64,000 bases of DNA from Bdellovibrio sp. (GCA_016187935.1 JACPIU010000014.1:1-64000); one strand, 5' to 3'; shown: positions 1,326 to 47,345, counted from the first letter of the stretch. The notes: a model not told the origin generated them from the sequence alone. A program made the numbers and translations.

Positions 1326-1446
1326 GTTCCCCAACTAGACTATTCACCCGACTTTTTTAGTGATGAGTTCAGGGAGTACAAAGTTAGATTCAAGCCACTT
1401 TTTAAAATCCGTGGCAGTCCCACTGATTTTCCATTATACTACTGTT

Positions 1447-2595
1447 ATGTATATAAAAAGACGAATCCCTATCCAAATTCACTTACAAGAAAAAAGCATT
1501 CTCCTTTTAGGCCCCCGTCGAACAGGCAAGTCATCACTCATCGAACATGAGGTCAAACCAGACTGCCTAATTAACCTTCTCCATGCCGAAGATTTTCAAA
1601 AGCTATCCTATAATCCCAGTATCTTAAAAGATTATATCAAATCCAAAGATCGGGTGATTGCGATTGATGAAGTACAACGACTCCCCTCACTGATGGATGA
1701 AATTCACTCTCTCATCGAAAAAGACAAACGTCTTCGATTCGTTCTTTCCGGCTCAAGTGTGAAGAATATCAAAAAAACTCATACGTCTCTTATGGCAGGG
1801 CGGGCCCGCCAAATGCTACTTCTGCCCTTTTCCTATATAGAGGTGAAGAATCATCATTTCGACCTCATTAAGTTTTTGGCATACGGAGGTCTCCCACCTG
1901 TCTATCTGTCGAAAAAACCTTGGGAAGAGCTTAAAGATTATACCGGCGAGTACTTGCGAGAAGAAATCATGGCCTCGGCCTTCGTCAGAAAGATTGAAAA
2001 TTATTCTCGCTTTCTAAGTTTTGCGGCAAAAACCAATGGGCAGATTCTAAATTTTGAATCTTTGGCCCGAGACGCTTTCATCCCTGCTCGGACGATTCGT
2101 GATTACTACGATCTCTTGGAAGAAACCATGATCGGATATATTCTCCCGCCCTACAAAAAGAAAACAAATCGCAAGGAAGTGTCCACTAGTAAATTTTACT
2201 TTTTCGATCTTGGGGTCTGTAACTCCATAGTAAAACGCGATGTTCTCCATGAAAAATCCCCTGCATTTGGAGAATTGTTTGAGCACTTCATTTTTTTAGA
2301 ACTCAAAAACTACCAAAAACAAAGTCGAGTTGATTGGGAACTATCATTCTGGCGCACGCACACCGGTTACGAAGTGGATTTCGTTCTTGGTGAAGGACAC
2401 GTTATCATCGAGGTGAAATCTTCCAAAAAGATCAGCTTAGCTGATTTGAAAGGCATAGAAAAGTTTTCTGAGGATCAGAAGGTAAAAAGAAAAATAGTCG
2501 TCTGCCGAGAAGAGAAAGTAAGACAGGTTGATGATGTTGAAATCCTTCCTTGGGAAAAGTTTTTAGAAATGCTATGGGCCGGGGATATTGCATAA
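1447..2595 (+). CDS. AAA_14/DUF4143-type ATPase
   Basis: The 382-aa protein has a Walker A (LLLGPRRTGKSSL) near residue 20 and a Walker B-like VIAIDEVQRLP about 60 residues later. A sensor-like FVLSGSSVK follows, and then a C-terminal half with the DUF4143/PD-(D/E)XK-like signature (GYEVDFVLGEGHVIIEVKSS). This is the AAA_14 plus DUF4143 family, widespread in accessory DNA and of unknown physiological role. I chose the ATG at 1447 (MYIKRR) because family members begin just before the Walker A; an upstream ATG at 1360 in the same frame would add 29 residues unlike the family. The gene sits between two RHS pieces that share the same repeat segment, so it interrupts or was deposited in an RHS gene. 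A paralogue lies at 47346-48512, also next to a truncated gene copy. Confidence 0.85.
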   Translation: MYIKRRIPIQIHLQEKSILLLGPRRTGKSSLIEHEVKPDCLINLLHAEDFQKLSYNPSILKDYIKSKDRVIAIDEVQRLPSLMDEIHSLIEKDKRLRFVLSGSSVKNIKKTHTSLMAGRARQMLLLPFSYIEVKNHHFDLIKFLAYGGLPPVYLSKKPWEELKDYTGEYLREEIMASAFVRKIENYSRFLSFAAKTNGQILNFESLARDAFIPARTIRDYYDLLEETMIGYILPPYKKKTNRKEVSTSKFYFFDLGVCNSIVKRDVLHEKSPAFGELFEHFIFLELKNYQKQSRVDWELSFWRTHTGYEVDFVLGEGHVIIEVKSSKKISLADLKGIEKFSEDQKVKRKIVVCREEKVRQVDDVEILPWEKFLEMLWAGDIA

Positions 2596-2604
2596 GGAAT
2601 TTAC

Positions 2605-4080
2605 ATGCCGATAATTTTAGACAAATGTATCTCTGGATATGACGTCTTTGGACGAAAAAGCACCGTTTCTCATTCCAATGGTCTTGAAGGCATGATGACC
2701 TATGATGAGTTGAACCGAACCACCAACATTACCTGGACGGGAGCAGGGGAGAATTTTTCCGAGGCAATCGCCTACAATTCGCAGACTGGAAACATAGACC
2801 AAATTGAGCGCGAATTTGGAATGTTCAATTACAATCACGACATTACCGATCAGTTGACTGGCATGGCATATACAGGAACCACTCAGCTTCCCAATGAACT
2901 CGTCAATAGGACGATCACGCACGATCATGCAGGCAACCGCGCAACCGACACCGTAAATGGCATTACCAAGACTCATTCCAACGTCATTTTGGAAAACGAC
3001 AAGTTCAAGATTTTATCTGATGAAGATGGACTTGGGAGAATTTGGCAGAAGGTTTACAAACAAGAAAACAAGACGGACATTTTTAATTATCAGACGGATG
3101 GGAAATTGATTCGTTTCCGTCGTTATGAAAATAATCAACTCACCCGAGATGTAAGATATTTTACCGATGCACTTCAGAGACGGGTGGCGAAGAATTTTAA
3201 GATTAACGGACAGGAGTGGACAAATAACTACAATCATCTTTTAAATTTTGATCAGATTTTGACAGCGCGTTCGGGAACGGGAGCCGAAGTGCTTTTCGCC
3301 GATGGTTTTGGTCTTGATGAGCATTTTGGAAAAATAGAAGCGAATGGGCCACTCGCTTTTGTTACAGATCACCTCGGAACCGTCGTTAACGAGCTGGCCA
3401 CGAGTGAGAAGAAGACTTTAAGTCCAACTGGGGAATTACTTGGCACTGCCCCTACACTGAGTCCATCGCTCCAACCCGTCATTTATGCATTTACAGGAGC
3501 TGAATACGCTGCCGAGAGAAATCAGAGTACGAATGGAGTACGTGAGTACGACCTTGATTTTGGAATTTGGTCTACGTTTGACCGGGCATGGCCGGTAGAC
3601 CATTCAAATGGCGTAGTGTATGGACAAAACTCGCCACTCAGATTTATTGATCCTTCAGGACTGGCATCTCCTGCTACTGATGAAATGACAAGTCCAGGAA
3701 ATACGTATGCAACGGCAAGTGATGCAGCCTACTCATTTCTTTCTATCGTTAATCCTTTTTCGAAAGCAGAAAATAGAGAGATCGGGGGATTGGTTATATA
3801 TGATCAATCTTCTGGAGGATATGGCGTCAGGAATATAACAATAGGGACAGAGCAATCAGTGGGGATTCCTCTACAAGTTAGTGCCGGCGAGATACGAAGT
3901 TCTTTCGCACATACTCATGCAGGTAACGACGCGAGATTTTTCGGAGAAATATTTTCTGAAGACGATGTTTCAACTGCAAATAGGTACGATCTTAAATCAT
4001 TTTTGATGACACCCAGTGACGTTTTTAACGAATATTCACCACACGGTGGATTCATTCCTCAATTTTGTCCGCAAAGATAG
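2605..4080 (+). CDS. Orphan RHS C-terminal cassette with JAMM/DUF4329-like toxin tip
   Basis: The 491-aa product starts 9 nt after the ATPase stop. Its first dozen residues are not RHS; YD-repeat homology begins at GYDVFGRK and matches, with divergence, the end of the upstream RHS. The core runs to the classic junction (FIDPSGLA, D at about residue 349). After that comes a variable tip of about 140 residues. The tip contains E392, H436-T-H438, S451 and D454, the arrangement of a JAMM/MPN metalloprotease (E...HxH...SxxD), and it resembles DUF4329 domains found at RHS tips. I infer a polymorphic toxin of peptidase type. The short core segment and downstream immunity candidate fit an orphan rhs-CT module rather than a full RHS gene. 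Family assignment of the tip is from motif memory only. Confidence 0.75.
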   Translation: MPIILDKCISGYDVFGRKSTVSHSNGLEGMMTYDELNRTTNITWTGAGENFSEAIAYNSQTGNIDQIEREFGMFNYNHDITDQLTGMAYTGTTQLPNELVNRTITHDHAGNRATDTVNGITKTHSNVILENDKFKILSDEDGLGRIWQKVYKQENKTDIFNYQTDGKLIRFRRYENNQLTRDVRYFTDALQRRVAKNFKINGQEWTNNYNHLLNFDQILTARSGTGAEVLFADGFGLDEHFGKIEANGPLAFVTDHLGTVVNELATSEKKTLSPTGELLGTAPTLSPSLQPVIYAFTGAEYAAERNQSTNGVREYDLDFGIWSTFDRAWPVDHSNGVVYGQNSPLRFIDPSGLASPATDEMTSPGNTYATASDAAYSFLSIVNPFSKAENREIGGLVIYDQSSGGYGVRNITIGTEQSVGIPLQVSAGEIRSSFAHTHAGNDARFFGEIFSEDDVSTANRYDLKSFLMTPSDVFNEYSPHGGFIPQFCPQR

Positions 4081-4090
4081 AGAGACATTC

Positions 4091-4405
4091 ATGAAAATAA
4101 AGTTAGCAATCGCAATGACCATTGCTGTATTGATTGTATTATCAGCCCTCTTTTATTTTAATTTATTACCGTTTGGTCCAATCATTTTTGATAGGCAGGC
4201 AATTTTAATTGCTCAAATGGTTTTTACAAAAGACTTAGGATTGCGGGATGAACGCTATGAGTACAAGGTAATCAGAGCGGATAATTATGTAGAAGTAAAA
4301 AGGACCTTGGTTTGCCCACCTGAATATGCATGTATGGGAGGAGGGGCGAAAATTAACATAAATAAATATACAGGCATTTTAGTTGATGTCCAGTATACGA
4401 AGTAG
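4091..4405 (+). CDS. Membrane-anchored candidate immunity protein (NTF2-like)
   Basis: The protein has 104 aa and starts 10 nt after the RHS toxin stop. Residues about 5-27 form one hydrophobic segment (signal anchor). The rest is small and soluble, ending in GGGAKININKYTGILVD, which resembles the end of NTF2-fold immunity proteins (GGGP..IDKKTG). Its position directly behind a polymorphic toxin tip is the usual place for an immunity gene. The N-terminal anchor implies that it acts in the periplasm or at the membrane. The ATG at 4091 was chosen because an earlier in-frame ATG at 4016 lies inside the toxin gene and would prepend sequence ahead of the membrane segment. Immunity function is inferred from context. 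Confidence 0.6.
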   Translation: MKIKLAIAMTIAVLIVLSALFYFNLLPFGPIIFDRQAILIAQMVFTKDLGLRDERYEYKVIRADNYVEVKRTLVCPPEYACMGGGAKININKYTGILVDVQYTK

Positions 4406-4797
4406 ATTGCCGAATTTCTTCAATAGGGAGAGCCATTTTTCGGATCGCATGGCAGCCGACGGCAGATCGTTGTCTTTTTAGCTGCATAAAACCTGAATTT
4501 TAGTCCCAGAAGCTATAAATTCCACGACGTGACGGTCAACTCCCATCAAAATTGGCCCTGTTTCTGGGCATCTGTGTCCGTTTTGTGTCCAAAAATTTGC
4601 AAAAATTTGGAAAAATCCAGCCAAAACCCCATGGAACTTTCAGGCCACAAACTGGATGGGCGCACAATTTTTCCGGCCGTTGGACGTATGTTACTCTTCA
4701 CCGTGTTTTCACTTGGCGACACTAATATAATCAAATAGTTACAAATAAATAGAATCATTAAGTTGACCAATTGTCGCATATAGTGTACACTAAACCA
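4406..4797. other. Non-coding stretch upstream of the HigB/HigA module
   Basis: No convincing gene is visible. It holds the left copy of an 18-bp direct repeat (4572-4589) followed by an A/T-rich block of the form AAAATTTGnAAAAATTTG. The right copy lies just after the antitoxin gene. Confidence 0.5.
4572..4589 (+). repeat. Left direct repeat bounding the HigB/HigA module
   Basis: The sequence ctgtgtccgttttgtgtc occurs here and again, identical, at 5450-5467. Both copies are followed by a similar A/T-rich tail, so the similarity extends to roughly 45 bp. The two copies enclose the toxin-antitoxin genes. Confidence 0.8.
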
Positions 4798-5133
4798 ATG
4801 GAGATTAAAGGAAGAACTGCTAGATTCTATCGGACGGAAGGTGAGAAGGAACCAGCAAGAGAGTGGCTTGATTCTCTTAAAGATAAGGTTGGACAAGCAA
4901 AAATTTTTACCCGAATAAGGAGGGCCGAAACGGGAAATTTTGGTGACCACAAAGTGGTCGGTGAAGGAGTCAGTGAATTAAGGATAACTCATGGCCCAGG
5001 CTACAGAATTTATTACGGTGTGGATGACAACGATAATTTAATTATTCTGTTAGTCGCAGGTGATAAGTCTACCCAAGAAAAAGACATAGAGAATTCCAAG
5101 TTATATTGGAAGGATTATAAGAAACGGAGATAA
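4798..5133 (+). CDS. RelE/HigB-type toxin (Gp49-like addiction module killer)
   Basis: The protein has 111 aa and matches the phage Gp49-like/HigB subgroup of RelE-fold toxins, mRNA interferases or growth inhibitors. Visible signatures are REWLDSLKD near residue 20, a basic IFTRIRRAETGNFGDHK segment, and the core strands ELRITHGPGYRIYYG and LIILLVAGDKSTQEKDI. The ATG at 4798 was preferred to 4771 because family members start a few residues before the first strand (RTARFYRT). The antitoxin follows after 2 nt, in toxin-first order as in higBA. No strong ribosome site is seen. The pair is flanked by direct repeats and sits between RHS fragments. Confidence 0.85.
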   Translation: MEIKGRTARFYRTEGEKEPAREWLDSLKDKVGQAKIFTRIRRAETGNFGDHKVVGEGVSELRITHGPGYRIYYGVDDNDNLIILLVAGDKSTQEKDIENSKLYWKDYKKRR

Positions 5134-5135
5134 AT

Positions 5136-5438
5136 ATGAGCAAAGGAACATCATTTAATGACTACCTGATGGAAAAGCTAAAAGACCCTGAGCTTGCTTG
5201 CCATTTTATTTCAGAGGCCATTGAGCAAAACGATTCTGACTATCTCAAGGTGGCACTTGGAGATATTGTTAAGGCCTATGGTGTCGGTTACATTGCAGAA
5301 CAAACAGGGATAAACCGTCAGACGATTTATAAAATGCTATCTGAAAATGGAAATCCAACCCACAAAAATTTGGTCGCCATCCTCGATGCTCTTGGGTTGG
5401 AGCTGACGGTAAGACCGAAAAAAACAATCGCGTCGTAA
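5136..5438 (+). CDS. HigA-like addiction module antidote (Xre-type HTH)
   Basis: The 100-aa protein begins with SFNDYLMEKLKDPELA and continues with AIEQNDSDYLKVALGDIVKAYG. A helix-turn-helix follows (YIAEQTGINRQTIYKMLS), then KNLVAILDALGLELTV. This order is that of the 'probable addiction module antidote' family paired with Gp49-like toxins. It should bind and neutralise the toxin encoded just upstream and repress the shared promoter. A GGAG ribosome site overlaps the end of the toxin gene, supporting the ATG at 5136. Confidence 0.9.
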   Translation: MSKGTSFNDYLMEKLKDPELACHFISEAIEQNDSDYLKVALGDIVKAYGVGYIAEQTGINRQTIYKMLSENGNPTHKNLVAILDALGLELTVRPKKTIAS

Positions 5439-6109: not shown

Positions 6110-8797
6110 TCAGTCGAGAATCTCGATTAACCCCGATTCACCATTCAAGCGTACTTTCATTCCGCTTTTGAGCTTTTTGGTAAGCCCGATCACGCTGACA
6201 ACAGTTGGCAGTCCCATTTCTCTCGCCACAATGGCCGAGTGGGAGAGTAGTCCGCCGCGCTCAACTAACAGTCCGCTGATACTAGGATAGAGGGGAATCC
6301 AACCCGGGTCAGTGCGCATGGTGACCAGGATTTCTCCGTTCAACGTCAAATCATCTTCGGGGCCCATAATGACTTTCACCGTTCCTTCGATAATCCCCGG
6401 GCAACATCCCAGCCCTTTTAACTGGTTGGGAAGAAGGTTGGTTTCAGGAGCGGAGGAGTGCTCATCATTGAGGGGTTCATGCTTATTTTGCCAGTAAGGC
6501 ATACCCCGGGTTACTAAGCGGGTGAGTGGTTCAGTATTATTATAATTTTGATATTCTTTTTTCCTGATATCGATCAAGGCCTTTAAATTTTGGGTGTGCA
6601 AATGGCCTTCCAAGGCACCTTTTAATTCTTCCAAAGAAAGATAAAAAATATCCTCCCGGGCATTGATAATATTTCGTGCCGTAAAGTCGGCGCCTATCCC
6701 AAAAAACATCGATCGAACGATGCCATAGACGCGCGTTCGACAGAAACGGGTATTCTCCCGATTGCGGACCGCCTTACGGGCATGATGTAATGACCAGCGA
6801 TAGAACATTTTTTTTACCGGGGACAAATTCTGATCGAGAAGGGCTTCGGCCTTTTCGCGAATTTCTTTTTCACGTTCTTCAAAATTGTTCAAGTTTATTT
6901 TGCCGGCACTTAAAAGATTTTTTAAGAAGACAAAAAGCAGCGAAGGATCTTGATGGAGGTCTTTCTGTTCAAGTTTCATTTCCGACATACAACGAAAGCC
7001 GTATTTATCAATGTATTCCAGCAATTTTTTGTACAGGTCTTGGTAGGGAGAAACGCGCAAGGCCTCAAAAAGCTGATTGTTGGGAGTGCTCAAAATTAAT
7101 TCCTGCAATGCTGGAATTTGCGAGATCATGCCAGCTAAGCGAATTAGATTCCTGGTGGGTTCTGCGGATTCCAAATTTCCATTACCGGCCAAGAGATCAT
7201 TATGGAAACTATCGCCCAGGTGTGAGAGCCACTTTTTGGTAAGGGACTTGAAAATTCCAAAATGTACCATGCATAGATAATCATTGATAATGGGAGCATG
7301 CCAGCGCCACAACATTTTTTCTTCCAAAGCTTGATAGTCTTGGTAGATTTCATGTGAGGGCATGCGAGAGTAATCGTGCTTACGAAATTGATTGTAAATG
7401 GAATGAAAGTAGCTCAGAAAATCATCCACCACGGTTTGAATGGTAAAGTGGTAGTACAGAAACTTAGCGCCGGTTAAAAACTTGCGAAAAGAGGCCCATG
7501 GCCCTCGATCAAATTCGGGGGGACGTATGCGTTCGGCAATTTCATTTTGCAGGGACTCATTCGTTCCCATCATGGTTTCCATGAATTGCCTATTGTACTT
7601 ATAGCCAGGCAGGATACTGGTTAGCTTGTACCAGTTTAAAAGGTTATAAAAAACGCGACCGTAAAACATCCCCAGCATGTTTTTCAAAAAGAAATTCATG
7701 CTCTTGATATTTTTCGTCGGCACCATGAGAACTTCGCAAAATTGCACATAAACCTGGTGATAGACATAGCGGGCAAAATCGAAAGTGAGGGGGAGGGTCA
7801 AACCGCCATAAGATTCAACGATATTGGAGTTGTCCCATACGAAGAGATGGCCCTTGAAGTTGGGAATAGCTGTGGTAATCGGTCTGGACTGAAGCAGATA
7901 GAGTTGTCCGTTTTCAAAACACCATTCCACATCCTGGGGATGGTGGTAAAAATTCTCGATTTGATTGGCAATTCTCGTCAGGTCTTGTAATTCATGAGGA
8001 GTGAGGGAAGAGGAGTTAACTTTGTCCGGCGATACCGGCACGGTTTTTAGACCGCCGAGTTCCAAATCACAAATGACCATGTCACGTTTTTCCACGATAT
8101 TCTGGCCTTTGACTTGGGAAGTATTCTTGTCGATAAAAAAGGCATCGGCATCGAGCTGCCCGGAGACTAAGCCTTCACCCACACCATAGACTGAATTGAT
8201 GATAATAGTCCCACCATCTTTAGTGGTTGGGTCCCCGGTAAAAAGCACTCCCGCCTTTTCCGCCGCGATCATTTGTTGAATGACGACGGCCACTTGAATA
8301 TTAGTCAGTGGAAGATGATTTTGATGACGATAAAAAAGGCAGCGCTCAGAATAAGCGGAGGCCCAGCATTTTTTTATGGATAAAAACAGCTCTGCTTCAC
8401 TTTTAATATAAAGAAAGCTCGAAAGTTGGCCGGCAAAAGAATGGGCGGCAGAATCTTCGTCAAGGGCAGAACTCCGCACCGCGACCGTGGTAAGGCCGTG
8501 GTCTTTGAAATTTTGCAAAACAATTTGTTTACTCACATGTGACAAAGGTTTAGAAATTATTAATTCCTCTATGGCAAGACTTGCCCTCTTAAAATCTTGC
8601 TGGCACTGTTCCACTAGATTGTTGATTTCATCACCAATCTCATTTTCCTTTTTGAAGGCCTCAAGAAAGGTTGGTCCTAAGGCAAACCATGCGGGAACAC
8701 GACATCCTTGATTGGAAAGTAAATAGAGATTAAAACCTTTTCCCCCGGCCTCGGCCTTGGCGAAATTTTGCAGCGAGCTTTTAGTTACAGGTAACAT
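6110..8797 (-). CDS. PEP-synthase/rifampin-phosphotransferase-like dikinase
   Basis: The 895-aa protein has the three-part layout of Rph-like enzymes. An N-terminal ATP-grasp half contains AEAGGKGFNLYLLSNQG, VAVRSSALDEDSA and VLFTGDPTTKDGG. A long central linker follows. The C-terminal swivelling phosphohistidine domain carries GGLLSHSAIVAREMGLPTVV, with His about 853. It ends there and lacks the PEP/pyruvate TIM barrel of true PEP synthase, so it probably transfers the ATP beta-phosphate to another small acceptor. It is the last gene of the leftward arm, 9 nt after the UbiA-like gene. In this setting the acceptor could be a lipid intermediate, but that is inference. The 3' end abuts an RHS scrap. 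Confidence 0.85.
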   Translation of the reverse strand: MLPVTKSSLQNFAKAEAGGKGFNLYLLSNQGCRVPAWFALGPTFLEAFKKENEIGDEINNLVEQCQQDFKRASLAIEELIISKPLSHVSKQIVLQNFKDHGLTTVAVRSSALDEDSAAHSFAGQLSSFLYIKSEAELFLSIKKCWASAYSERCLFYRHQNHLPLTNIQVAVVIQQMIAAEKAGVLFTGDPTTKDGGTIIINSVYGVGEGLVSGQLDADAFFIDKNTSQVKGQNIVEKRDMVICDLELGGLKTVPVSPDKVNSSSLTPHELQDLTRIANQIENFYHHPQDVEWCFENGQLYLLQSRPITTAIPNFKGHLFVWDNSNIVESYGGLTLPLTFDFARYVYHQVYVQFCEVLMVPTKNIKSMNFFLKNMLGMFYGRVFYNLLNWYKLTSILPGYKYNRQFMETMMGTNESLQNEIAERIRPPEFDRGPWASFRKFLTGAKFLYYHFTIQTVVDDFLSYFHSIYNQFRKHDYSRMPSHEIYQDYQALEEKMLWRWHAPIINDYLCMVHFGIFKSLTKKWLSHLGDSFHNDLLAGNGNLESAEPTRNLIRLAGMISQIPALQELILSTPNNQLFEALRVSPYQDLYKKLLEYIDKYGFRCMSEMKLEQKDLHQDPSLLFVFLKNLLSAGKINLNNFEEREKEIREKAEALLDQNLSPVKKMFYRWSLHHARKAVRNRENTRFCRTRVYGIVRSMFFGIGADFTARNIINAREDIFYLSLEELKGALEGHLHTQNLKALIDIRKKEYQNYNNTEPLTRLVTRGMPYWQNKHEPLNDEHSSAPETNLLPNQLKGLGCCPGIIEGTVKVIMGPEDDLTLNGEILVTMRTDPGWIPLYPSISGLLVERGGLLSHSAIVAREMGLPTVVSVIGLTKKLKSGMKVRLNGESGLIEILD

Positions 8798-8806
8798 TTC
8801 AATACC

Positions 8807-9700
8807 TCAGACCATCATAAATAAGAGCGAATTAAGGGCAAGATAGATAAGTATAATGTATCCACTGCTCATGGCGCGAAACAGTTTCGCGCTTTTGGCG
8901 GAATTTTGTGCGAGATAAAGGCCTCCAAGAGTCAGCAGCAAAATGGGAAAAAACCACAAAAGAATTGGCAAATGGCCCGGCATCTTGGAACCGAGTGCCA
9001 GAAGAAGGAAGAGGGAAGAAAGCACTGCCTGTGAGAGAGAGAGCAACACAGCACCAAGCCGTCCCCAGATATTTGAATAGGTGGCGACACCTTGGCGCTC
9101 TTCTGTGGTGCTATAGGTTTTACGTCCGAATTCAAAGAGATTAAACAGTGTCCAGGAGGCCAAGGCAAAGTAAAAATCGGTTTGATTGAACACTTGTTGT
9201 CCGGCAAAAATACCCAAGAGAGAGAGCGAGAGGCCGACCGTGACCACGGTGTGAGACATCGCGTAGGTGGTGAGGTGGGGGCGGAGGATTTTCCCCATAA
9301 AAAATTCTTTATACATGAGAAGCGAATAACCCACCACTATCAGAAAAAAAGGTAATACTTTCAAGGTCAGTAGGGCGCAGAGAAGAATCTCGCTAGCGAT
9401 AAGAACACCAATCATAAGATAAAGATCGCGATGTACGATCAGCCCGCGAGGAAGTGGACGGCCGGGATTGAAGGTCAAATCAGTCTGGTAGTCCTTGATT
9501 TCATCGTAGCAACGAAGTTTTAAAAAAAATAAAGTTGTAAGAAGGACAGCTCCCGCAACCGTGGCCAGCTTAAAATCAACTATTGTCTGGGCCCGCAAGT
9601 AGGCCAAATGACCGCCGACAAAGAGGACAATCATCACCGAATGAGAGATCGGATCAAAGCGCTCTTTGATAAATTGCAGAATGGCCATTCCCTTTTTCAC
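8807..9700 (-). CDS. UbiA-superfamily prenyltransferase
   Basis: The 297-aa polytopic membrane protein has about eight or nine hydrophobic helices. The first Asp-rich motif is seen as CYDEIKDYQTDL followed by NPGRPLPRG. The second conserved loop is FGRKTYSTTEERQGVATYS. Both are diagnostic of UbiA intramembrane prenyltransferases, which join an isoprenyl diphosphate to an acceptor. It lies 4 nt after the hydrolase/ligase fusion gene and 9 nt before the dikinase gene, so these are one transcription unit. The acceptor is unknown; in a locus of lipid enzymes it may be a glycerol- or alkyl-type lipid headgroup rather than a quinone ring. Confidence 0.85.
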   Translation of the reverse strand: MKKGMAILQFIKERFDPISHSVMIVLFVGGHLAYLRAQTIVDFKLATVAGAVLLTTLFFLKLRCYDEIKDYQTDLTFNPGRPLPRGLIVHRDLYLMIGVLIASEILLCALLTLKVLPFFLIVVGYSLLMYKEFFMGKILRPHLTTYAMSHTVVTVGLSLSLLGIFAGQQVFNQTDFYFALASWTLFNLFEFGRKTYSTTEERQGVATYSNIWGRLGAVLLSLSQAVLSSLFLLLALGSKMPGHLPILLWFFPILLLTLGGLYLAQNSAKSAKLFRAMSSGYIILIYLALNSLLFMMV

Positions 9701-9704
9701 CGAT

Positions 9705-12119
9705 CTAACCCTTAAGTAATTCTTGTCTCAATACCTCGTACTCGACTTTTGAGTGATGACGAGGGTCCATAGGAATTTTTTCAACAATGCGAATTTGGTC
9801 AAAGGCCACGCCATTTTTATCCAGAAGTCGTGCAATCTCCTGCTTGATAGAATCACCTTTGGAGCTGACATCGGCCGGTTCGTTGAGAGCGACAACCGCA
9901 AAGGTTTTTTCACCCAATGTAGCATCTGGCATTCCCAGGTAGGCGGCATATTTCACTTGAGGAATTTTCTTCATGATGATTTCCGCCCTAACCGGGAAAT
10001 AATAACGCCCCCCCCGATTGATGGCATTGTGAACACGGCCGACAAGCCAGAGATAGCCTTTTTCATCTATGCGACCGAGATCCCCGGTCCGATGCCAAAT
10101 AGTTCCATCATGCCCGCGGATTTTGGCCCGGGCAAAGGCCTCAGGATTGTTGAAATAGCCATGGCAGACGTGTTCGCCGGCAACAATAATTTCACCCACC
10201 TCACCATGAACGACTTCATATTTTTTCCAATCTTCATGGCGTGCGATAGTGATGCTTTCTTTGGTAATTTTAATGAATTTAGTTTGCAATCCCTCATCCA
10301 TGTGGCCGACGTTCACTCCCTCATCCACCCATTCCGCATCTTCATCGGCGCGGGTTTTGAGGTTGAGCATTTCTTTAGCTTCAATATGGCCCATTGGTTC
10401 AACTTCAGTTGAACCATACAAAATGAGAATTTCGGCATTGGGGCAGACTGCCTTAATACGCTTGGTATCATCACGAGATACTGGAGCGCCGCCGGTGATA
10501 ATTCTGCGCAATTCAGGCAGTGTATAATTATTTTCCAGGCAGTATTTTGAAAGTCCATTGAGCAGACCGGGTGAAAGTGTCACGCAAGTGACTTTTTGTG
10601 ATTTCATCTGGGCCATCAAAATAAGCGAATCACGGTCGGATGGTGTTCCTACATCAATCGCCGGAATAACGGTATTCACGCCGGCGGCCAAATTGTTCAA
10701 TGAAAAAATGGGAAAAACAGGGAGGTCGACGTCTCCTTCCACATAGGGAAGATGACGATTAAGCGCATAATGTTGGGCGGCCAGAAAACGGTGGGTTCGA
10801 TCAGCACCCTTCGGTGTTCCGGAACTTCCGGTGGTAAAGGTGATCAAGGCAGTATGCTCCTTTTCCACAGCGGCCACGGGGCAATAACTTTTTTCCTGCA
10901 TCAGTTCTTCTAAGCGCGCCGAATAATTTCCTTGCGCCGGCCCGGCGACAACTTTGAGTGGAATTTTTCTGATCTCGGGCACTTCTCCTAAGTAAACAAA
11001 GGCACGCTCCACCGAAACGATTGCCTTGGGCGAGGCCTGTTCTGCTGAGATTCCCAATTGATCGCGGCGTGCCCATGAATCGAGAAAAACCGGAATGGCA
11101 CCGATTTTTTGTAGAGCGAACATGGTGGTATAGAGGTAGAGGCTCATGGGAATGAAGACAATGACACGATCGCCTTTTTGAATCCCCAGTTTGCTTAATC
11201 CTGTGCCTACGACGCCAATCAGGTGATTGAGTTCTTGCACCGAGACGGAGCGGTGGGGGAGTGGAGTATTTAAATTAAAATCCCAATTTTTTAAGACCTC
11301 AAGGTCTACCCAGGTCAGGATTTTTCTAGTGGGAAAATTCTTGAGATGGCCTTTCAAAAAAGTGAAAACATTGTTCTCTTCGGATTCACCCGGGTAATAG
11401 CCGATTTTGCCTGTGGCCTTGAGCACAGTATCTCGGATCAGTCCCTCAACCTGATGAGCGTGAGTCCATAAGAGGGCGTGTCCGCCATCGGCAATTTCCA
11501 CCAGTTCGCCACCTAAAAGATTTTGAATCGGAGTGATTTGTTCCTGGCGATTGGATGTCTTATCTTGTGATCCATAGATGATAGTGACGGGGACAGCACT
11601 TTCCTTCAACGGTTTGAAATCAAGCGTATCATGCTCTTTTTCAAGCACGGATTGGCGAAGGACATTGGCGTTGGTATAGATTCCTTTTTGGGCGCGGTAA
11701 CTGCCCGGAACGGGTTTGGGATAACTGGAGGTTTCCAGCATATTTTCAATCGCTTTCTCGCCTTTATTCTTAAGCAAAACATCGGACAGGACAGGTAAAT
11801 TCAAGGCAAAGCGAGTCATTGAGCTGGGTGAATTTTTGATAAAGAGATAAGGGGAAACAAGAATGACGGCACTGGGACGAATATTATTTTTCAAAAGCAA
11901 TGTGGCATCTTGAATCGCTCGAGTGCAGCCGAAGCTATAACCGATGATAATGATATTTTCCGTCTTTCCATCCAGCACATCTGTCACTGTCTGATAGGGG
12001 TTGGCATAGCGATCGATAGTTTTCCATTCCATTTGTGGGAATAAATTTTCGCTGACAGCTTTAAAATCTGAGGGATGTCCGGGAGAACCATGATGGGCGA
12101 TAACAGTCGGCTTTTTCAT
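9705..12119 (-). CDS. Alpha/beta-hydrolase fused to OleC-like adenylate-forming enzyme
   Basis: The 804-aa protein has two parts. Residues 1-230 form an alpha/beta-hydrolase with nucleophile elbow GYSFG (Ser62), likely acid Asp186 (GSQDK) and His214 (DGGH). Residues about 250-804 are an ANL-superfamily adenylating enzyme with the P-loop TFTTGSSGTPKG (427-438), LYGSTEVEP and the hinge region TGDLGRIDEKGYLWLVGR. The segment PVFPIFSLNNLAAG with ITGGAPV resembles OleC beta-lactone synthetases, and OleB-OleC fusions are known. Here, however, the hydrolase has a Ser nucleophile and there is no OleA thiolase nearby. It overlaps the upstream formyltransferase gene by 4 nt, implying translational coupling. 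It probably activates or releases an acyl chain. Confidence 0.85.
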   Translation of the reverse strand: MKKPTVIAHHGSPGHPSDFKAVSENLFPQMEWKTIDRYANPYQTVTDVLDGKTENIIIIGYSFGCTRAIQDATLLLKNNIRPSAVILVSPYLFIKNSPSSMTRFALNLPVLSDVLLKNKGEKAIENMLETSSYPKPVPGSYRAQKGIYTNANVLRQSVLEKEHDTLDFKPLKESAVPVTIIYGSQDKTSNRQEQITPIQNLLGGELVEIADGGHALLWTHAHQVEGLIRDTVLKATGKIGYYPGESEENNVFTFLKGHLKNFPTRKILTWVDLEVLKNWDFNLNTPLPHRSVSVQELNHLIGVVGTGLSKLGIQKGDRVIVFIPMSLYLYTTMFALQKIGAIPVFLDSWARRDQLGISAEQASPKAIVSVERAFVYLGEVPEIRKIPLKVVAGPAQGNYSARLEELMQEKSYCPVAAVEKEHTALITFTTGSSGTPKGADRTHRFLAAQHYALNRHLPYVEGDVDLPVFPIFSLNNLAAGVNTVIPAIDVGTPSDRDSLILMAQMKSQKVTCVTLSPGLLNGLSKYCLENNYTLPELRRIITGGAPVSRDDTKRIKAVCPNAEILILYGSTEVEPMGHIEAKEMLNLKTRADEDAEWVDEGVNVGHMDEGLQTKFIKITKESITIARHEDWKKYEVVHGEVGEIIVAGEHVCHGYFNNPEAFARAKIRGHDGTIWHRTGDLGRIDEKGYLWLVGRVHNAINRGGRYYFPVRAEIIMKKIPQVKYAAYLGMPDATLGEKTFAVVALNEPADVSSKGDSIKQEIARLLDKNGVAFDQIRIVEKIPMDPRHHSKVEYEVLRQELLKG

Positions 12120-12868
12120 AAAATTAATCCTTGGTCGATCATTGCACGAATTTGTTTATGATTGGGAGTTTTAGAATAATGGTGCGGGGTCGCGCTGTTA
12201 AATGCAAGTGGTTCTGGTAAGCGACCTTCTTTTTCTATGTAAGAAAATATTTCGCTTAAAGCTTGGGCCTCAATCTGGGCCGAACGTTTTAGATATTCTT
12301 GATAGTTTTTGTCTCCATGACCAACTTCACAACGCTTGTATAAAACGCCCGCATCAACTTTTTCCACCATGTGATGGATGCTAAAACCTGCCGGCCGGCC
12401 TTCGGACAAAGCATAAAGGTCACAAAGTGTTCCGCGATAATCAGGTAACAGTCCGTGGTGGATATTGATACAACCGAGTCGCGGAGCTGCTAAAATTGGT
12501 GACTTATAAATACAACGGGTGCGCATGTTTACGACTAAATCAATGTCTAAGTCTTTCACAAGTTTGATGGCCTCAGGCGAATTCATACTCTCAAACTTAA
12601 AAACCGGAACATTAAATTGCCGCGCCAGCACTTCACGGGGGTCCCAATTGAGCATGAGCCGTACAATATTCTGAAGGAATCCCAAACCTGTTTTTCTTGC
12701 CCCCATGGCATAGAGGCCTAAGGCCTTGATTAAGATTTGAGGACTGAGGTTTTGGAGCAAAATAATGCCTTTGATCTGATGGGCCTGAAGAGGCAGTAAC
12801 TGCTTAAAAAGTGGGGCATAATTGCCTGGGACATAAGTAATCTGGCTGGTGGCCAACAGCGCTCGCAT
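12116..12868 (-). CDS. Formyltransferase-like protein (Fmt/ArnA fold)
   Basis: The 250-aa protein has the formyl-transferase catalytic signature: Asn and His in GCINIHHGLLPDYRGT, and the Asp in EKVDAGVL. It is shorter than methionyl-tRNA formyltransferase (about 310 aa) and lacks the C-terminal tRNA-binding domain, so it probably formylates a small amine or hydroxyl compound. It is first in the leftward operon and shares a 143-bp divergent promoter region with the lipid kinase. The upstream AAGGGA supports the ATG at 12868. If the BtaA-like enzyme makes an amino-bearing lipid, that amine would be a possible acceptor; this is speculation. Confidence 0.8.
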   Translation of the reverse strand: MRALLATSQITYVPGNYAPLFKQLLPLQAHQIKGIILLQNLSPQILIKALGLYAMGARKTGLGFLQNIVRLMLNWDPREVLARQFNVPVFKFESMNSPEAIKLVKDLDIDLVVNMRTRCIYKSPILAAPRLGCINIHHGLLPDYRGTLCDLYALSEGRPAGFSIHHMVEKVDAGVLYKRCEVGHGDKNYQEYLKRSAQIEAQALSEIFSYIEKEGRLPEPLAFNSATPHHYSKTPNHKQIRAMIDQGLIL

Positions 12869-13011
12869 AAATTAAATCCCTTGAAGAGGTGGCGTATTCT
12901 AAGAATCGCTCCTTAATTAAACCATGGGGATAGTAGAATTTACACGGGTTTAAGAAAAGAAAGGCCTCTCATGCCGGCTTCCATTACTATGCCAAAAAGG
13001 CCAAAAAACTC
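12869..13011. promoter_or_regulatory. Divergent promoter region of the lipid locus
   Basis: This 143-bp gap separates the leftward four-gene arm from the rightward four-gene arm and is the only sizeable intergenic space inside the locus. It must carry promoters for both directions. I cannot place -35/-10 boxes with confidence. Confidence 0.5.
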
Positions 13012-13971
13012 ATGCAAACTATTAGCGTTTATATAAACCAAAATGCCTCACATGCCAGTCATGATTTGAAGCATAAGATTGAATCGATTCTGTTTCGAAG
13101 CAATTTGCAATTTAAGCAACCCCAAGACTTTGAGGACCTTGATCAATGTCTGGAAAGGGACATTGATGCGAAGGTGGATGCCATCGTTTCGGTCGGCGGT
13201 GATGGAACCGCCAATACCATTATTCAAAAGATTGCAGGAACAGAGATTGGACTTTTGGTAGTACCCGGGGGCACCGCCAACGATTTAGCGCATGAACTTG
13301 GCAATCATCAATCCTTACAAAATGTTTTGCAAAGTATCAGGAACAAGGAATTTAAAAAAATTGATTTGATCAAAATCAATGGCCGTTTCATGGCCACCAA
13401 TGGCGGTATTGGTTTTGGAGGAAAGGTGGCGCAGAAAATTAATCGTTTGCGTGCCGCCTATCCGCTATTTAAAAAGGTCATGAATTTATCCGGCAGTAAG
13501 ATCTATTCGCTTTTTGTGGCCCAAGAATTACTTTCGTTGCATCTCGATCGTCATAGAATCAAAGTTACCAGCAAGGAATTATCTGGAGTATTTGATGTCG
13601 CGGCCCTCTTTGTGAATAACCAATCAACCGTAGCAGGTAAATTTGAATTGGCGCCGTTTACCGCCAATAATGATGGCCGATTTAATGTTATTTTGGTGAC
13701 TCATCAGAATCGAGCTCAGTTGATTAACTGTGTGATAAAGGTGAGTATGGGACATTTCCCCGAGAATGATCCGCATTTTATTACCTTCGAAACTGATAAG
13801 ATTGAAATTGAATCGCTAGAGTCTGAGAAAAGTATTTTCTTTGGTGACGGAGAAATTTTAGGCCAGGGACCTAAATGGGAAGTGGAAGTGGTCAAAGATT
13901 CCTTGAAAGTGTTTACTCGTTGTTCAAAAAATGCCGATCTTCCCCTGCCACAAAATTTTGGATTATCCTAG
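13012..13971 (+). CDS. Diacylglycerol/lipid kinase (DAGK_cat family)
   Basis: The 319-aa protein has the DAGK/YegS/BmrU hallmarks: SVGGDGTANTII near residue 62, then VVPGGTANDLAHELG, TNGGIGFGG, and a C-terminal FFGDGE. Members phosphorylate diacylglycerol, sphingoid or other lipid hydroxyls with ATP. It is the first gene of the rightward arm. The ATG at 13012 is preceded by AAGG at a long spacing. It is likely to phosphorylate a lipid intermediate of this pathway. Confidence 0.9.
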   Translation: MQTISVYINQNASHASHDLKHKIESILFRSNLQFKQPQDFEDLDQCLERDIDAKVDAIVSVGGDGTANTIIQKIAGTEIGLLVVPGGTANDLAHELGNHQSLQNVLQSIRNKEFKKIDLIKINGRFMATNGGIGFGGKVAQKINRLRAAYPLFKKVMNLSGSKIYSLFVAQELLSLHLDRHRIKVTSKELSGVFDVAALFVNNQSTVAGKFELAPFTANNDGRFNVILVTHQNRAQLINCVIKVSMGHFPENDPHFITFETDKIEIESLESEKSIFFGDGEILGQGPKWEVEVVKDSLKVFTRCSKNADLPLPQNFGLS

Positions 13972-13985
13972 GCAGGGATTCCAAT

Positions 13986-15050
13986 ATGCACATTCTATTA
14001 ACAGGCGGCACAGGCTTTTTAGGTGAATCTCTTATCCCTTGGCTTGAGCGTGCACCAGGGATTGAAAAAATCCATCTTTTGGTGCGCCCCCAGAGCGCTA
14101 ATCGTGCTTTGTTTTTACATCGTGGGCGATCAAAAGTTTCCATTGTGCGCGGTGATATCACTCTGCCTCAAGTTTTTTTACGGGATACTGATAAACAAAT
14201 CCTTTCACAAATTTCCACCATCGTTCATCTGGCGGCCTATTACAATTTAAGCGGGAGTTATCCCGAATGTTTTATCAATAACGTGGTTGGGACGCAGAAT
14301 TTACTCTTTTTGGCACGACAGTGCCCTCATCTCCAGGCCATCCATTACGCCAGCTCCATTGCGGTCGTCGGTGAATATCATGGGCCTTTTCTGGAAGATG
14401 AGTTGAACAAAGGCCAGCGTTTTCACGATGCCTATGGCAAAACTAAATTTGAAGCAGAACTGTTGATTGAGAAACTGATTTCCAGTCAGGCCCTGGCGCC
14501 TCAGATAAAAACGCGTTTATATCGCTTGGGCATTCTGGTTGGTGATAGACAATCCGGGGCCTTTAAAGAAAAAAATGGTCCATATTATTTTTTGGAATTT
14601 TTATCAAAATTATCCATGCTTTCTTCGATTATAAAGCATACACCCTTTCTGGCACTACCTTTTGCCAAAAAAAGTCTTTTTCCCCTTGCGCCCGTGGATT
14701 GGGTGTCGGAAGTTTTGTCCCATGGAATACTGAATGTTTGTGAGGTCGGGCGATCAAAAACCTATCATGTCATTCCCCGTCGCATACCCACCATGGAAGA
14801 ATTTTTGCATGATGCGCTTGAAACTTTCGATCTCAAACGTCCTTTATTGGCCATTCCGCGAAATGCCTTAAATGAGCTATGCATGAAACAAGTCGGCTTA
14901 CCGCCAGAATTTTCCACCTATGTCTACTCCAAAACAGCTTGGCAGCGGGCCCAGTTCGAGCAGGATTTTCCTCAGTTTCAGGATTTGGACTATCACGATT
15001 TTAAAAAAATATTTTTTGCTGGCGCTTTCAAGAGATGGGGGAACAAATGA
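13986..15050 (+). CDS. NAD(P)-dependent thioester-reductase-like / extended SDR
   Basis: The 354-aa protein opens with the Rossmann motif LLTGGTGFLGESL, has VHLAAYYNLSG and NVVGTQNLL, and carries the SDR active-site YGKTK (YxxxK). The N-terminal layout matches NAD_binding_4 (male-sterility/thioester-reductase) and OleD-type enzymes that reduce acyl thioesters or beta-keto acids. The start at 13986 has an AGGCAGGGA ribosome site and removes an overlap with the kinase gene. It overlaps the next gene by 4 nt (ATGA). With the neighbouring acyl-ACP-reductase-like protein it suggests production of a fatty aldehyde, alcohol or hydroxy-acyl intermediate. Confidence 0.8.
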   Translation: MHILLTGGTGFLGESLIPWLERAPGIEKIHLLVRPQSANRALFLHRGRSKVSIVRGDITLPQVFLRDTDKQILSQISTIVHLAAYYNLSGSYPECFINNVVGTQNLLFLARQCPHLQAIHYASSIAVVGEYHGPFLEDELNKGQRFHDAYGKTKFEAELLIEKLISSQALAPQIKTRLYRLGILVGDRQSGAFKEKNGPYYFLEFLSKLSMLSSIIKHTPFLALPFAKKSLFPLAPVDWVSEVLSHGILNVCEVGRSKTYHVIPRRIPTMEEFLHDALETFDLKRPLLAIPRNALNELCMKQVGLPPEFSTYVYSKTAWQRAQFEQDFPQFQDLDYHDFKKIFFAGAFKRWGNK

Positions 15051-17101
15051 GGCATATATTATCCCTCGCTTTCACATTGACCCATCCCTATTTTGACGAT
15101 GTGATTGAATTTCAAGGAGAGAAAATCCGTCTTACCCAGTATGGAACCAATTTTGATGTAGAATTGACCAAGCGTTTAATTGAACAATATGACGGCCATG
15201 TTGATGCCATCGCCTTAAGCGGTCTCCCTCCGGTTATTAAATTCAAGGGAGGGGAATTTATTCATCCGGTTTCTCTGGAGCTTAAGCATTATGCCAAGGA
15301 AAGCTTAATCGTTGACGGCCAGATGTTGAAAGATGTGTATCTACCTTGGGCCATGCGACAGTTTGTGCTCAAAAATCAACTCATTCTGAGCAAGAAACGC
15401 ATCGGCATTTATTCGGCCTCTTTTCAAGTCAATTTGTTGGAAGTATTGGAAGAATTTCAAAACCAAATCCTCATGGCCGATCCTTTTTATTTTTTACGCT
15501 TGCCTTTTGTTCTTACTTCTTCCGAGCAATTGAATTTGTTTGTGAAAGTTGGGGGTAATCTTTTTCGTAAGATGAAATTAAAGCGTTCTCAGGTGGCGGA
15601 TTTTTCTCTGCGAAAACATTATCCAAGCGCGCTGAAGAAATTTTTAAATAGCGATATTTTTGTCGGTGCCATGAATACCGTTAATCTGATGGATTTGGAT
15701 CATCTGAAGGATAAGATATTAATCGTGGATTTTGCCACTCCCGAATTTGAGGCGAAGCTGCGTGCCCACGGGGTGGCCAAGGTTGTCACCTGCTTACCTC
15801 ATCTTGATGTTGGTCCCTTTATCAACTACGCTATCTTTGAGGCGTTGTTGCAGGCCAAATCTCCCGGTACTGCTCATCTCGATGAAAATGATCTTCTCGG
15901 CTGGATTCAGCGTCTCCATTTAGGCCCGGAATTGCTCGAACTCAATAGCAAAAAGGACTCAGAGAAAACTAAATTCGCATTTATCATCCATCCATTGAAT
16001 AAAAAACATCTCTTTTATCATCCCAAATTAAAATGGTTCACAAAAAACTTTCCCCAAGTGTTGGAGCCTTTGGAAAATACCGCGGAAGAGATCATTTCCA
16101 TGTTGCCGGGAATCTTTTATGGTCGCATTCATGGAGTGAAAAGTGAGAAAAATGGAAAAGAGGTCGAAGGTTTAATTTACTCGGCCACAGAAACACCACG
16201 TAAGATTATGGAAAAAGACCCCGAAGTGGTTTATCGACGTTTAGTGAGACTGGCCGAGTTGGCTTCCCAGGCCGGGGCGGGAATCATTGGTCTGGGCGCA
16301 TATACTAAAATAGTAGGTGATGCTGGCGTTACAGTGGCACGTCGCTCACCCATTCCCGTGACTACCGGAAATTCGCTCTCCGCTGCTTCCACCCTTTGGG
16401 CCGCCAAGGTGGCGGTATTCAAAATGGGTATGGTGGTAGAAAAAAATGATATCATGCAAGGGGTGTGCATGGTGGTTGGTGCTACCGGAAGCATTGGTGC
16501 CGTTTCGGCAAAATTGCTAGCGCAAAAATGGAAAAAGATTATTTTGGTTGCTCCCAGGGCCTATAAGCTTTTGGAGTTAAAGGGTGAAATTGCCCAGCTT
16601 GCTCCTCACTGCGATATTCAGGTGGCCACCGATCCCGGCCCATATTTGAATGAATGTCATTTAGTTATAACCACCACCAGTAGCCGGGGTGAAAAAATCT
16701 TGGAGATTGAAAAGGTAAGACCAGGTTGTGTGATTTGTGATGTTAGCCGCCCCTTCGACATTAGCGAGGAAGAGGCCCTGAAACGTCCCGATGTGATGGT
16801 GATTGCCAGTGGGGAAGTGGAATTGCCCGGAGCGGTGAAAATCACTGTCAACCTTGGACTGCATGGCAATGTAGTCTATGCCTGTTTGGCCGAGACCGCC
16901 CTCCTGGCCATGGAAGGAAAACTTGAGTCCTTTACTCTATCGCGCAATATTAATTATGAGAAAGTTATCGAGATAGATCGCCTGGCGCGTGAGCATGGTG
17001 TTCGTCTTTCGCATATTATGGGCCACCAAGGCATTATTTCGGATGAGGAATTTGAACTTTGTCGCGGCCATGCAGTTGAGGCACTTTCAAAAAAAACCTG
17101 A
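15047..17101 (+). CDS. Two-part protein: quinate-dehydrogenase-like N-half, acyl-ACP-reductase-like C-half
   Basis: The protein has 684 aa. The C-terminal part (about 330-684) resembles cyanobacterial long-chain acyl-[acyl carrier protein] reductase. It shows GLGAYTKIVGDAGVTVAR, TTGNSLSAAS, the nucleotide-binding VVGATGSIGAVSAKLLAQ, and VICDVSRPFDI. The N-terminal part (1-330), with VDAIALSGLPP and LIVDGQMLKD, looks like proteins annotated 'quinate 5-dehydrogenase'; that match is from memory and tentative. The ATG at 15047 overlaps the preceding stop in an ATGA arrangement, which I preferred to 15035. AAR makes fatty aldehydes from acyl-ACP. Here the extra N-half and its partner genes suggest a specialised acyl reductase feeding lipid synthesis. 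Confidence 0.75.
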   Translation: MRHILSLAFTLTHPYFDDVIEFQGEKIRLTQYGTNFDVELTKRLIEQYDGHVDAIALSGLPPVIKFKGGEFIHPVSLELKHYAKESLIVDGQMLKDVYLPWAMRQFVLKNQLILSKKRIGIYSASFQVNLLEVLEEFQNQILMADPFYFLRLPFVLTSSEQLNLFVKVGGNLFRKMKLKRSQVADFSLRKHYPSALKKFLNSDIFVGAMNTVNLMDLDHLKDKILIVDFATPEFEAKLRAHGVAKVVTCLPHLDVGPFINYAIFEALLQAKSPGTAHLDENDLLGWIQRLHLGPELLELNSKKDSEKTKFAFIIHPLNKKHLFYHPKLKWFTKNFPQVLEPLENTAEEIISMLPGIFYGRIHGVKSEKNGKEVEGLIYSATETPRKIMEKDPEVVYRRLVRLAELASQAGAGIIGLGAYTKIVGDAGVTVARRSPIPVTTGNSLSAASTLWAAKVAVFKMGMVVEKNDIMQGVCMVVGATGSIGAVSAKLLAQKWKKIILVAPRAYKLLELKGEIAQLAPHCDIQVATDPGPYLNECHLVITTTSSRGEKILEIEKVRPGCVICDVSRPFDISEEEALKRPDVMVIASGEVELPGAVKITVNLGLHGNVVYACLAETALLAMEGKLESFTLSRNINYEKVIEIDRLAREHGVRLSHIMGHQGIISDEEFELCRGHAVEALSKKT

Positions 17102-17126
17102 TACAATAAAGACATAGGGTCTTTAT

Positions 17127-18236
17127 ATGTCGAACCAGTATTTCCGTGGAATCAATTATTCCCTTGGTAACGAAGATACCACTTTGGAGTACGAAATCTG
17201 CCGGCAGCACAGGCCAAAAGTCGCTGTGGCCATTGCCGGAAGTGGCGGACGCTCGCTGCCTCTCTTGGCCTTCTCCGATAAACTTTTTGCTGTGGATGTC
17301 AGTAAAGAGCAGTTGGCCCTGACGGAATTGCGTGCCCGCACCTATCAAGGCCTTGATCATTACTCTTTTTTGAAATTTTGGGGATACCCTCCTTTTGGAG
17401 AATACGATTACGGCCATTATCGCAAGGCCATGTTAAATGAACTCCCTTTGTCTCAACAAACCCGCAACTATTTCCATGAACTATTCGGCCCCATTAACTA
17501 TGCCTCCATACTCTATTCGGGCAAGTGGGAACGGACTTTCCAAATATTGTCGAAAGGTCTGCGCTTGATGATGGGCCGTGAGTACGGCCATATTTTATCC
17601 TTTCATTCGATGGAAGATCAGAAGGCCTATTATCAACATGAATTTCCCATGGCGCAGTGGAAAACTGTGCTTTTTCTCTTGGGAAATAAATCAGTGTTTA
17701 ATGCCCTTCTCTACAAGGGTGATTTTGTCAAAAAGTCCCTCACGGAGAGTTACTTCCAATTTTATTTCGATGCTTTTGAACGTCTTTTCACCCAGCAACT
17801 GGCGCGCCGATCTTTCTTTGTCAATCTCTGTTTTTTTGGCAAAATCAATCACGAGGACGGCAATCCTCTCGAAGTTCGTGCGCTGAGTTTTAATGAGATG
17901 AAACCACGAATGCAAAATCTGGAACGTGATCTGGTTTATATTAACCAAGACATCTTGGGGGGGCTGGCCACGATCACCCAACAACTTGGTCCAAGTGGTG
18001 TGGATTTTCTCTCCATGAGCGACGTTCCATCTTATTTTAGGGGCGAACTTGAGAAAAACTTTTTGAGTAAAATTCGCCCATCCATGCGCACCGGAGGATT
18101 GATTTCTGTGCGTTATTATTTGAATGTCTTGGAACCTGATATGGACGGTTTTCAGGATGTCACCAATCAGTATCGGGATTTAATCAACCGCGAATGTGTT
18201 CAGATGTATCGGATAAAAATCTATCAGGCCGTTTGA
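17127..18236 (+). CDS. BtaA-like S-adenosylmethionine:diacylglycerol aminocarboxypropyl transferase (DUF3419)
   Basis: The 369-aa protein has the DUF3419 pattern. VAVAIAGSGGRSLPLLAF is the SAM-binding loop, and FAVDVSKEQLALTELRARTY is the acidic strand and following helix. YHYGHY-like aromatic segments and SMSDVPSYF follow. BtaA moves the 3-amino-3-carboxypropyl group of SAM to a lipid hydroxyl, the first step to betaine lipids. It lies 25 nt after the reductase gene, so it belongs to the rightward arm. No BtaB N-methyltransferase is present in the window, so the product may be an unmethylated or otherwise modified homoserine lipid. The assignment to the family is firm; the exact acceptor is not. 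Confidence 0.8.
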   Translation: MSNQYFRGINYSLGNEDTTLEYEICRQHRPKVAVAIAGSGGRSLPLLAFSDKLFAVDVSKEQLALTELRARTYQGLDHYSFLKFWGYPPFGEYDYGHYRKAMLNELPLSQQTRNYFHELFGPINYASILYSGKWERTFQILSKGLRLMMGREYGHILSFHSMEDQKAYYQHEFPMAQWKTVLFLLGNKSVFNALLYKGDFVKKSLTESYFQFYFDAFERLFTQQLARRSFFVNLCFFGKINHEDGNPLEVRALSFNEMKPRMQNLERDLVYINQDILGGLATITQQLGPSGVDFLSMSDVPSYFRGELEKNFLSKIRPSMRTGGLISVRYYLNVLEPDMDGFQDVTNQYRDLINRECVQMYRIKIYQAV

Positions 18237-47273: not shown

Positions 47274-47345
47274 TAATGCTAATTAAGCAATTATACTTCA
47301 AGAAAAGACTTGTTCCTCGGTAAGGATCTTGCTTATAATCAGGAT

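Follow-up and report, generated by a model that had tools for sequence, protein, structure and literature searches.

The enzymes discussed here have relatives in several described systems. In OleBC fusions a hydrolase is joined to OleC, phytol salvage runs through VTE5 and VTE6 and then a UbiA-type transferase, and aryl polyene and other Lol-type exported lipid clusters carry LolA-like proteins and MMPL or ABC exporters beside their biosynthesis genes. In betaine-lipid synthesis, BtaA forms diacylglyceryl-homoserine from diacylglycerol and S-adenosylmethionine (SAM) (PMC10685587); aminocarboxypropyl transfer from SAM is covered in a review (PMC10491745). Here we examine eight genes at positions 6110-18236 of a 64,000-nucleotide stretch of Bdellovibrio sp. 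DNA (GCA_016187935.1, JACPIU010000014.1:1-64000; hereafter the window); within its 4.4-Mb genome the window is contig 48. The genes form two tightly packed head-to-head operons (Table 1) and are a real, conserved and apparently undescribed biosynthetic locus, which we tentatively read as a two-operon locus for a SAM-derived, N-capped envelope lipid.

The locus shares parts with each of these systems. Its DUF3419 enzyme (BTAA) is expected to move the 3-amino-3-carboxypropyl group of SAM, as in the BtaA/BtaB pathway, but the amine would receive a formyl or acyl group instead of three methyl groups, and the remaining enzymes lack counterparts there; no BtaB-type N-methyltransferase was found in the window locus or among the annotated recurrent neighbour clusters. 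Prodiginine (pig/red) and tambjamine clusters likewise contain a PigC/RedH-like dikinase (here DIK) and a PigE-like thioester reductase domain (here AAR), but the scores fall far under the cut-offs, aminotransferase and pyrrole genes are missing, and a lipid kinase (DAGK), a UbiA-like protein (UBIA) and the DUF3419 enzyme are present. The C-terminal half of AAR has the fold and catalytic Cys of cyanobacterial AAR (6JZU), but it follows an extra N-terminal domain and is not accompanied by an aldehyde-deformylating oxygenase (ADO). The hydrolase fused to an OleC-like ligase (HYD-OLEC) recalls OleB and OleC of OleABCD, although the OleC cut-off is missed, OleA is absent, and the hydrolase tracks the formyltransferase (FMT) rather than olefin genes. 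A kinase, a second phosphotransferase and a UbiA in one set are reminiscent of phytol salvage, but the kinase families differ and UBIA has lost its second Asp motif. Exporters adjoin the biosynthesis genes in variant loci as they do in aryl polyene and Lol-type clusters, whereas the core has no polyene ketosynthases.

Conservation of the eight genes

The closest named relative is the Bdellovibrionales metagenome-assembled genome GWA2_49_15, with an AAR 93% identical to that of the window; carriers also include genomes named Bacteriovoracaceae and Halobacteriovorax. All eight genes occur together in many Bacteriovoracales genera, including the RefSeq strain Bacteriovorax sp. BSW11_IV, and are syntenic in L031-L034, L037, L039, L041-L044 and others. 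In twenty loci from other genera, each at most 20 kb long, the full set is mostly present in the same divergent order. Among 80 loci from a species-level genome collection, the DAGK - TE-SDR - AAR - BTAA arm recurs in most of the closer loci (TE-SDR being an extended short-chain dehydrogenase/reductase, SDR), and the FMT - HYD-OLEC - UBIA - DIK arm usually adjoins it. The second arm lies at a separate genome position in two genomes of one genus (G044, G045), which shows that the two modules are retained together for their function.

Across 129 genomes of the order, AAR was found with BTAA in 62 of 65 genomes and locus-type DIK with BTAA in all 63, where locus-type means E <= 1e-150, or broken at contig ends, by thresholds of our own choosing; because the genomes are related by descent, co-occurrence p-values overstate their independence. 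Active-site residues are kept almost without exception in every family of the locus. The eight genes are not a chance assembly. The original prediction, made from the sequence, had proposed this neighbourhood search as its check; the genes do stay together across many genera, and the nearest relatives of the locus proteins are not housekeeping enzymes. NrdA and NrdB (clusters c8 and c12), considered as conserved neighbours, were identified by reading their sequences as housekeeping genes adjacent by chance.

Several distant relatives of the order also have the gene set, and a minimal core is found in an alphaproteobacterium. On a Roseinatronobacter plasmid (L152, NZ_CP121116.1), a single operon encodes UbiA - DIK - DUF3419 - 439-aa membrane protein - GNAT - ligase, without AAR, SDR or DAGK. 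The 439-aa protein matched neither Pfam nor NCBIfam families; on visual inspection it recalls dolichol/phytol kinases.

Variant loci also add export genes. A LolD-like ATPase and a LolCE-like permease were found in several lineages (L068, L089, L092-L094, L100, L113, L118, L127), LolA-like and outer-membrane-barrel-like proteins occur in variant loci (the barrel read by eye, without a family match), and other variants have an MMPL exporter (L134, L131). Because of these additions, the product is probably a lipid bound for the outer membrane or outer envelope. A subset of loci holds P450 (c9) and metallo-beta-lactamase (MBL)-lactonase-like (c21) genes (L083:12919-14298 and similar).

Table 1. 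Genes and intergenic region of the locus, in window coordinates
Feature	Position	Strand	Evidence
DIK, Rph/PigC-type phosphotransfer dikinase	6110..8797	-	PF01326 4.5e-73, PF00391 1.1e-20
UBIA, UbiA-like membrane transferase	8807..9700	-	PRK13592 7e-16; first motif DExKDxxxD, second = E-x2-R-K
HYD-OLEC, N-terminal alpha/beta hydrolase fused to OleC/PRK09274-like AMP-forming ligase	9705..12119	-	PF00501 2.1e-40
FMT, 10-formyl-tetrahydrofolate-type N-formyltransferase	12116..12868	-	PF00551 1.5e-14
Divergent intergenic region between operons, presumed promoter region	12869..13011	.	position
DAGK, YegS/DAGK-type soluble lipid kinase	13012..13971	+	PF00781 3.1e-18, PF19279
TE-SDR, thioester-reductase/fatty-acyl-reductase-like extended SDR	13986..15050 (start corrected from 13875)	+	PF07993 4.1e-35
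AAR, long-chain acyl-thioester reductase domain behind ~310-aa N-terminal domain	15047..17101 (start corrected from 15035)	+	PigE/AAR structure matches
BTAA, DUF3419/BtaA-like SAM-dependent 3-amino-3-carboxypropyl transferase (predicted)	17127..18236	+	PF11899 1.5e-24, full length

Aminocarboxypropyl transfer and the capped amine

BTAA contains a DUF3419 domain with its SAM-binding motif (GxGxR...D in 49 of 49 sequences); a PDB search with this protein found nothing. A different type of DUF3419 cluster was seen on a Deefgea piscis plasmid (L151, NZ_CP054144.1), where a 35% identical protein adjoins an iron-containing redox enzyme and SpeD, with SbnA/SbnB further on.

FMT keeps its Asn135-His137-Asp172 triad in 23 of 23 sequences. 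Where FMT is missing, its place is taken by a family without a Pfam name (c7), the predicted structure of which (pLDDT 86.7) matches tandem GNAT acyltransferases (7q3a, 9.5e-13) and on this model identifies the replacement as one of them. FMT only was found in 35 genomes and locus-type GNAT only in 25, with one genome having both and two having neither (p 4e-14). The genome with both (G124) is a fragmented assembly in which AAR and BTAA are each present twice, and those with neither call are a fragmented assembly (G012) and a genome with a divergent GNAT in its locus (G047). At the level of loci, 23 carried FMT and 15 carried GNAT, and none of the 38 carried both. Mapping the two types on the AAR tree gave four changes, at least three of which are forced by strongly supported branches, and both types occur within one genus (g4). 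The hydrolase domain of HYD-OLEC accompanies FMT; the GNAT-type ligases examined lack it.

The one type of target common to formyl and acyl transfer is an amine; the swap thus argues for N-capping of such a group. As BTAA is the sole locus enzyme expected to bring an amine, the simplest candidate for the capped group is the 3-amino-3-carboxypropyl group that the BtaA-like enzyme would add from SAM. The headgroup nitrogen probably carries a formyl cap and, in other strains, a different acyl group.

Acyl reduction, the UbiA-like protein and the dikinase

The C-terminal half of AAR (residues ~313-688) matches PigE (4ppm, 3.7e-29) and AAR (6jzq, 2.8e-05), and its predicted model (pLDDT 86) aligns with 6jzu at a TM-score of 0.79 by target. 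Cys617, which aligns with Cys294 of the cyanobacterial enzyme, is present in 76 of 76 sequences; the TIGR04058 cut-off is not reached (50.6 of 449.7 bits). The N-terminal ~310 residues gave no convincing structural match, only weak aspartate-transcarbamoylase-like ones. Stand-alone copies of this domain (about 312-335 aa) occur in several genomes (L157-L162), one of them in a locus without the reductase half (G027, L162). In gammaproteobacteria, genes for polyphosphate kinase and Ppx/GppA lie next to full-length AAR homologues (L110, L114, L117, L121), and one such homologue in Nostocoides adjoins WS/DGAT (L120); Dus (L123) and ppk/ppx (L121) beside the gammaproteobacterial genes look incidental. 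TE-SDR has YxxxK in 58 of 58 sequences, and DAGK has the GGDGT and GTAND motifs of YegS/DAGK lipid kinases (GGDGT in 59 of 60, the other with one T-to-S change). The G047 locus, which has no AAR, encodes a 3-hydroxy-3-methylglutaryl-CoA (HMG-CoA) reductase fused to an APH-like kinase (L132:5009-7354), perhaps, by analogy, an equivalent of thioester reduction followed by alcohol phosphorylation.

UBIA of the window has no Pfam match, is missed by a PF01040 search of its own genome, and matches only PRK13592 (7e-16); its Roseinatronobacter relative does match PF01040 (2.4e-11). The first motif, D-E-x-K-D-x3-D, is kept, while the second Asp-rich motif is replaced by an invariant E-x2-R-K (14 aligned and 30 locus sequences), so that only the first of the two Asp-rich motifs of UbiA prenyltransferases is present in all homologues. 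At this position a UbiA-family protein of the same genome, used as the canonical comparison, has N-N-L-R-D. Because of this replacement, a standard two-metal diphosphate site in UBIA is unlikely on the motif evidence, and it is doubtful that the protein carries out an ordinary prenyl-diphosphate reaction.

Several lineages have ligase and UbiA as one polypeptide. Both domains were seen directly in the sequences of three loci (L079, L083, L084), and five others apparently have the fusion too, judging by ORF (open reading frame) length and order (L081, L085, L086, L097, L099). The ligase scores 374 bits against PRK09274 and 236.7 of the 900 bits of the OleC NCBIfam equivalog cut-off. The hydrolase triad Ser62-Asp186-His214 is present in all 16 sequences with this domain.

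DIK has an ATP-binding PPDK_N domain, a middle domain and a C-terminal His domain, in the order of Rph/PigC-type enzymes, and catalytic His853 is found in 36 of 36 sequences. It scores 1050 bits against NF004881, which passes that cut-off, and matches RedH/PigC at about 1e-107 without reaching the RedH, PigC or Rph cut-offs. Although NF004881 was passed, we rejected DIK as a phosphoenolpyruvate (PEP) synthase, having found no PF02896/PEP-utilizers_C and no PEP/pyruvate barrel. Related genes were also seen in clusters of other kinds. Loci L138-L141 (G076, G078, G087, G114) combine UbiA and dikinase with polyketide synthase (PKS)/AfsA-like genes, an OleC-like ligase, two ICMT methyltransferases, an SDR and a P450, and a Streptomyces durmitorensis plasmid (L153) has a dikinase, AfsA, ICMT, P450 and KASIII without UbiA.

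The predicted layout of eight head-to-head genes that overlap or nearly touch was recovered, with all eight ORFs in place and two starts revised. Homologues align only from residue 38 onwards in the SDR ORF and from residue 5 in the reductase ORF, hence the likely starts given in Table 1. With these, DAGK and TE-SDR are 14 bp apart and TE-SDR overlaps AAR by 4 bp; FMT and the ligase also overlap by 4 bp, and the remaining within-operon gaps are 4 to 25 bp. The predicted family names were all supported by family searches, that of UBIA being correct but sub-threshold. A sigma-70 scan of the intergenic region gave no match above chance (no better than shuffles). The locus boundaries hold, since the genes to the left (HigA-like, DUF4329, RHS-repeat) and to the right (queA-tgt-yajC-secDF) are unrelated. 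The left flank (111-5438) encodes an RHS-repeat protein, a DUF4143 ATPase, a DUF4329 protein and a HigA-like antidote; elsewhere in the window are a second DUF4143 ATPase (47310-48512) and a HipA-like protein (45432-46709).

A proposed pathway and its alternatives

In the pathway that we propose, AAR and TE-SDR would reduce an acyl thioester, yielding a fatty aldehyde or alcohol, and DAGK would phosphorylate a lipid hydroxyl. BTAA would transfer the 3-amino-3-carboxypropyl group of SAM to a lipid nucleophile, giving a homoserine-type head, the amine of which would be formylated by FMT, or acylated in GNAT-type loci. The ligase would adenylate a carboxylate in one complex with UbiA, and UbiA would form an alkyl bond within the membrane, while DIK would either provide or use up a phosphorylated partner. 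Export would follow through Lol-like or MMPL systems; variant loci have the genes for these alongside, and in this genome they presumably lie at another position. BTAA transfer, FMT/GNAT capping and export are the better supported steps and those of the ligase and UbiA/DIK the weakest; we infer the lipid nature of the product, its N-formyl-homoserine-type head and the order of steps.

Several observations weigh against this pathway. The core can do without acyl reduction, since no AAR is present in G067, G047 or the operon of Roseinatronobacter. UBIA and DIK may carry out a separable reaction, since they are paired in PKS/AfsA clusters without BTAA. The BTAA acceptor need not be a lipid, because DUF3419 relatives also occur in the non-lipid-looking Deefgea cluster. 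The exclusivity of FMT and GNAT rests on three to four tree events, not on 60 independent ones, and no exporter lies beside the locus in the window.

The genes could instead follow a prodiginine/tambjamine-like logic and make a specialised metabolite that is soluble or pigment-like, with an AAR aldehyde entering an ATP-dependent condensation by the PigC-like dikinase and the lipid parts incidental. The RedH/PigC and PigE matches given above, the related dikinases in PKS/AfsA/P450 clusters and the P450 and MBL genes of some loci all fit, but the PigC/RedH score is 361 of 1300, the locus has no aminotransferase or pyrrole genes, and the genes are found together with a lipid kinase and with LolA/LolCE or MMPL exporters; we regard this explanation as unlikely. 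A second alternative is a phytol-salvage-like alkylation arm: the reductases would give a fatty alcohol, which may be allylic, for phosphorylation by DAGK and then by DIK, and UbiA would transfer the phosphate-linked alkyl to an acceptor lipid. These reductase, kinase, dikinase and UbiA genes do co-occur, and where AAR and DAGK are missing, the HMG-CoA-reductase/APH-kinase fusion of G047 and the kinase-like membrane protein of Roseinatronobacter could stand in for them. However, the second diphosphate-binding Asp motif of UBIA is replaced, saturated alkyl phosphates make poor donors, no Pfam or NCBIfam family matches the 439-aa protein, and the UbiA-DIK pairs of L138-L141 come without this kinase, making such an arm improbable.

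Wax ester or olefin/hydrocarbon synthesis by Ole or AAR pathways would account for AAR, the OleC-like ligase, the hydrolase and the WS/DGAT neighbour in Nostocoides, but is very improbable given an OleC score of 237 of 900, the lack of OleA, ADO and WS/DGAT at the locus, and the unexplained BTAA, FMT and dikinase. Ordinary betaine-lipid (diacylglyceryl-trimethylhomoserine, DGTS) synthesis with unrelated neighbours, suggested by the BtaA-like DUF3419 protein, is hardly credible when an N-formyl/acyl transferase stands in place of BtaB and seven other genes remain linked. The sphingophosphonolipids already known from Bacteriovorax were considered as a product but dropped, the locus having no serine palmitoyltransferase or phosphonate gene.

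For the SAM-derived, N-capped envelope lipid that we prefer, the open-licence PubMed Central papers searched yielded no described pathway with this gene set, in keeping with the original prediction, and no paper combining DUF3419 and UbiA. That prediction had also proposed an unusual headgroup-modified lipid, perhaps prenylated or aldehyde/alkyl-derived; the modified headgroup finds support in the DUF3419 enzyme, in the exchange of FMT for GNAT and in the associated exporters, whereas prenylation is unsupported by a UBIA without the normal second motif. It is possible, if doubtful, that the product is a new class of outer-envelope lipid of N-formyl or N-acyl homoserine-ether type, made with new UbiA chemistry in which the second Mg-diphosphate site is exchanged for the basic E-x2-R-K and the partner is a lipid-directed dikinase. 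The locus would explain a conserved, unstudied part of envelope chemistry in predatory-type Bdellovibrionota, and aminocarboxypropyl lipids would extend beyond betaine lipids. The UbiA of the locus belongs to a subfamily whose active site is altered and whose reaction is directly testable in the RefSeq strain BSW11_IV.

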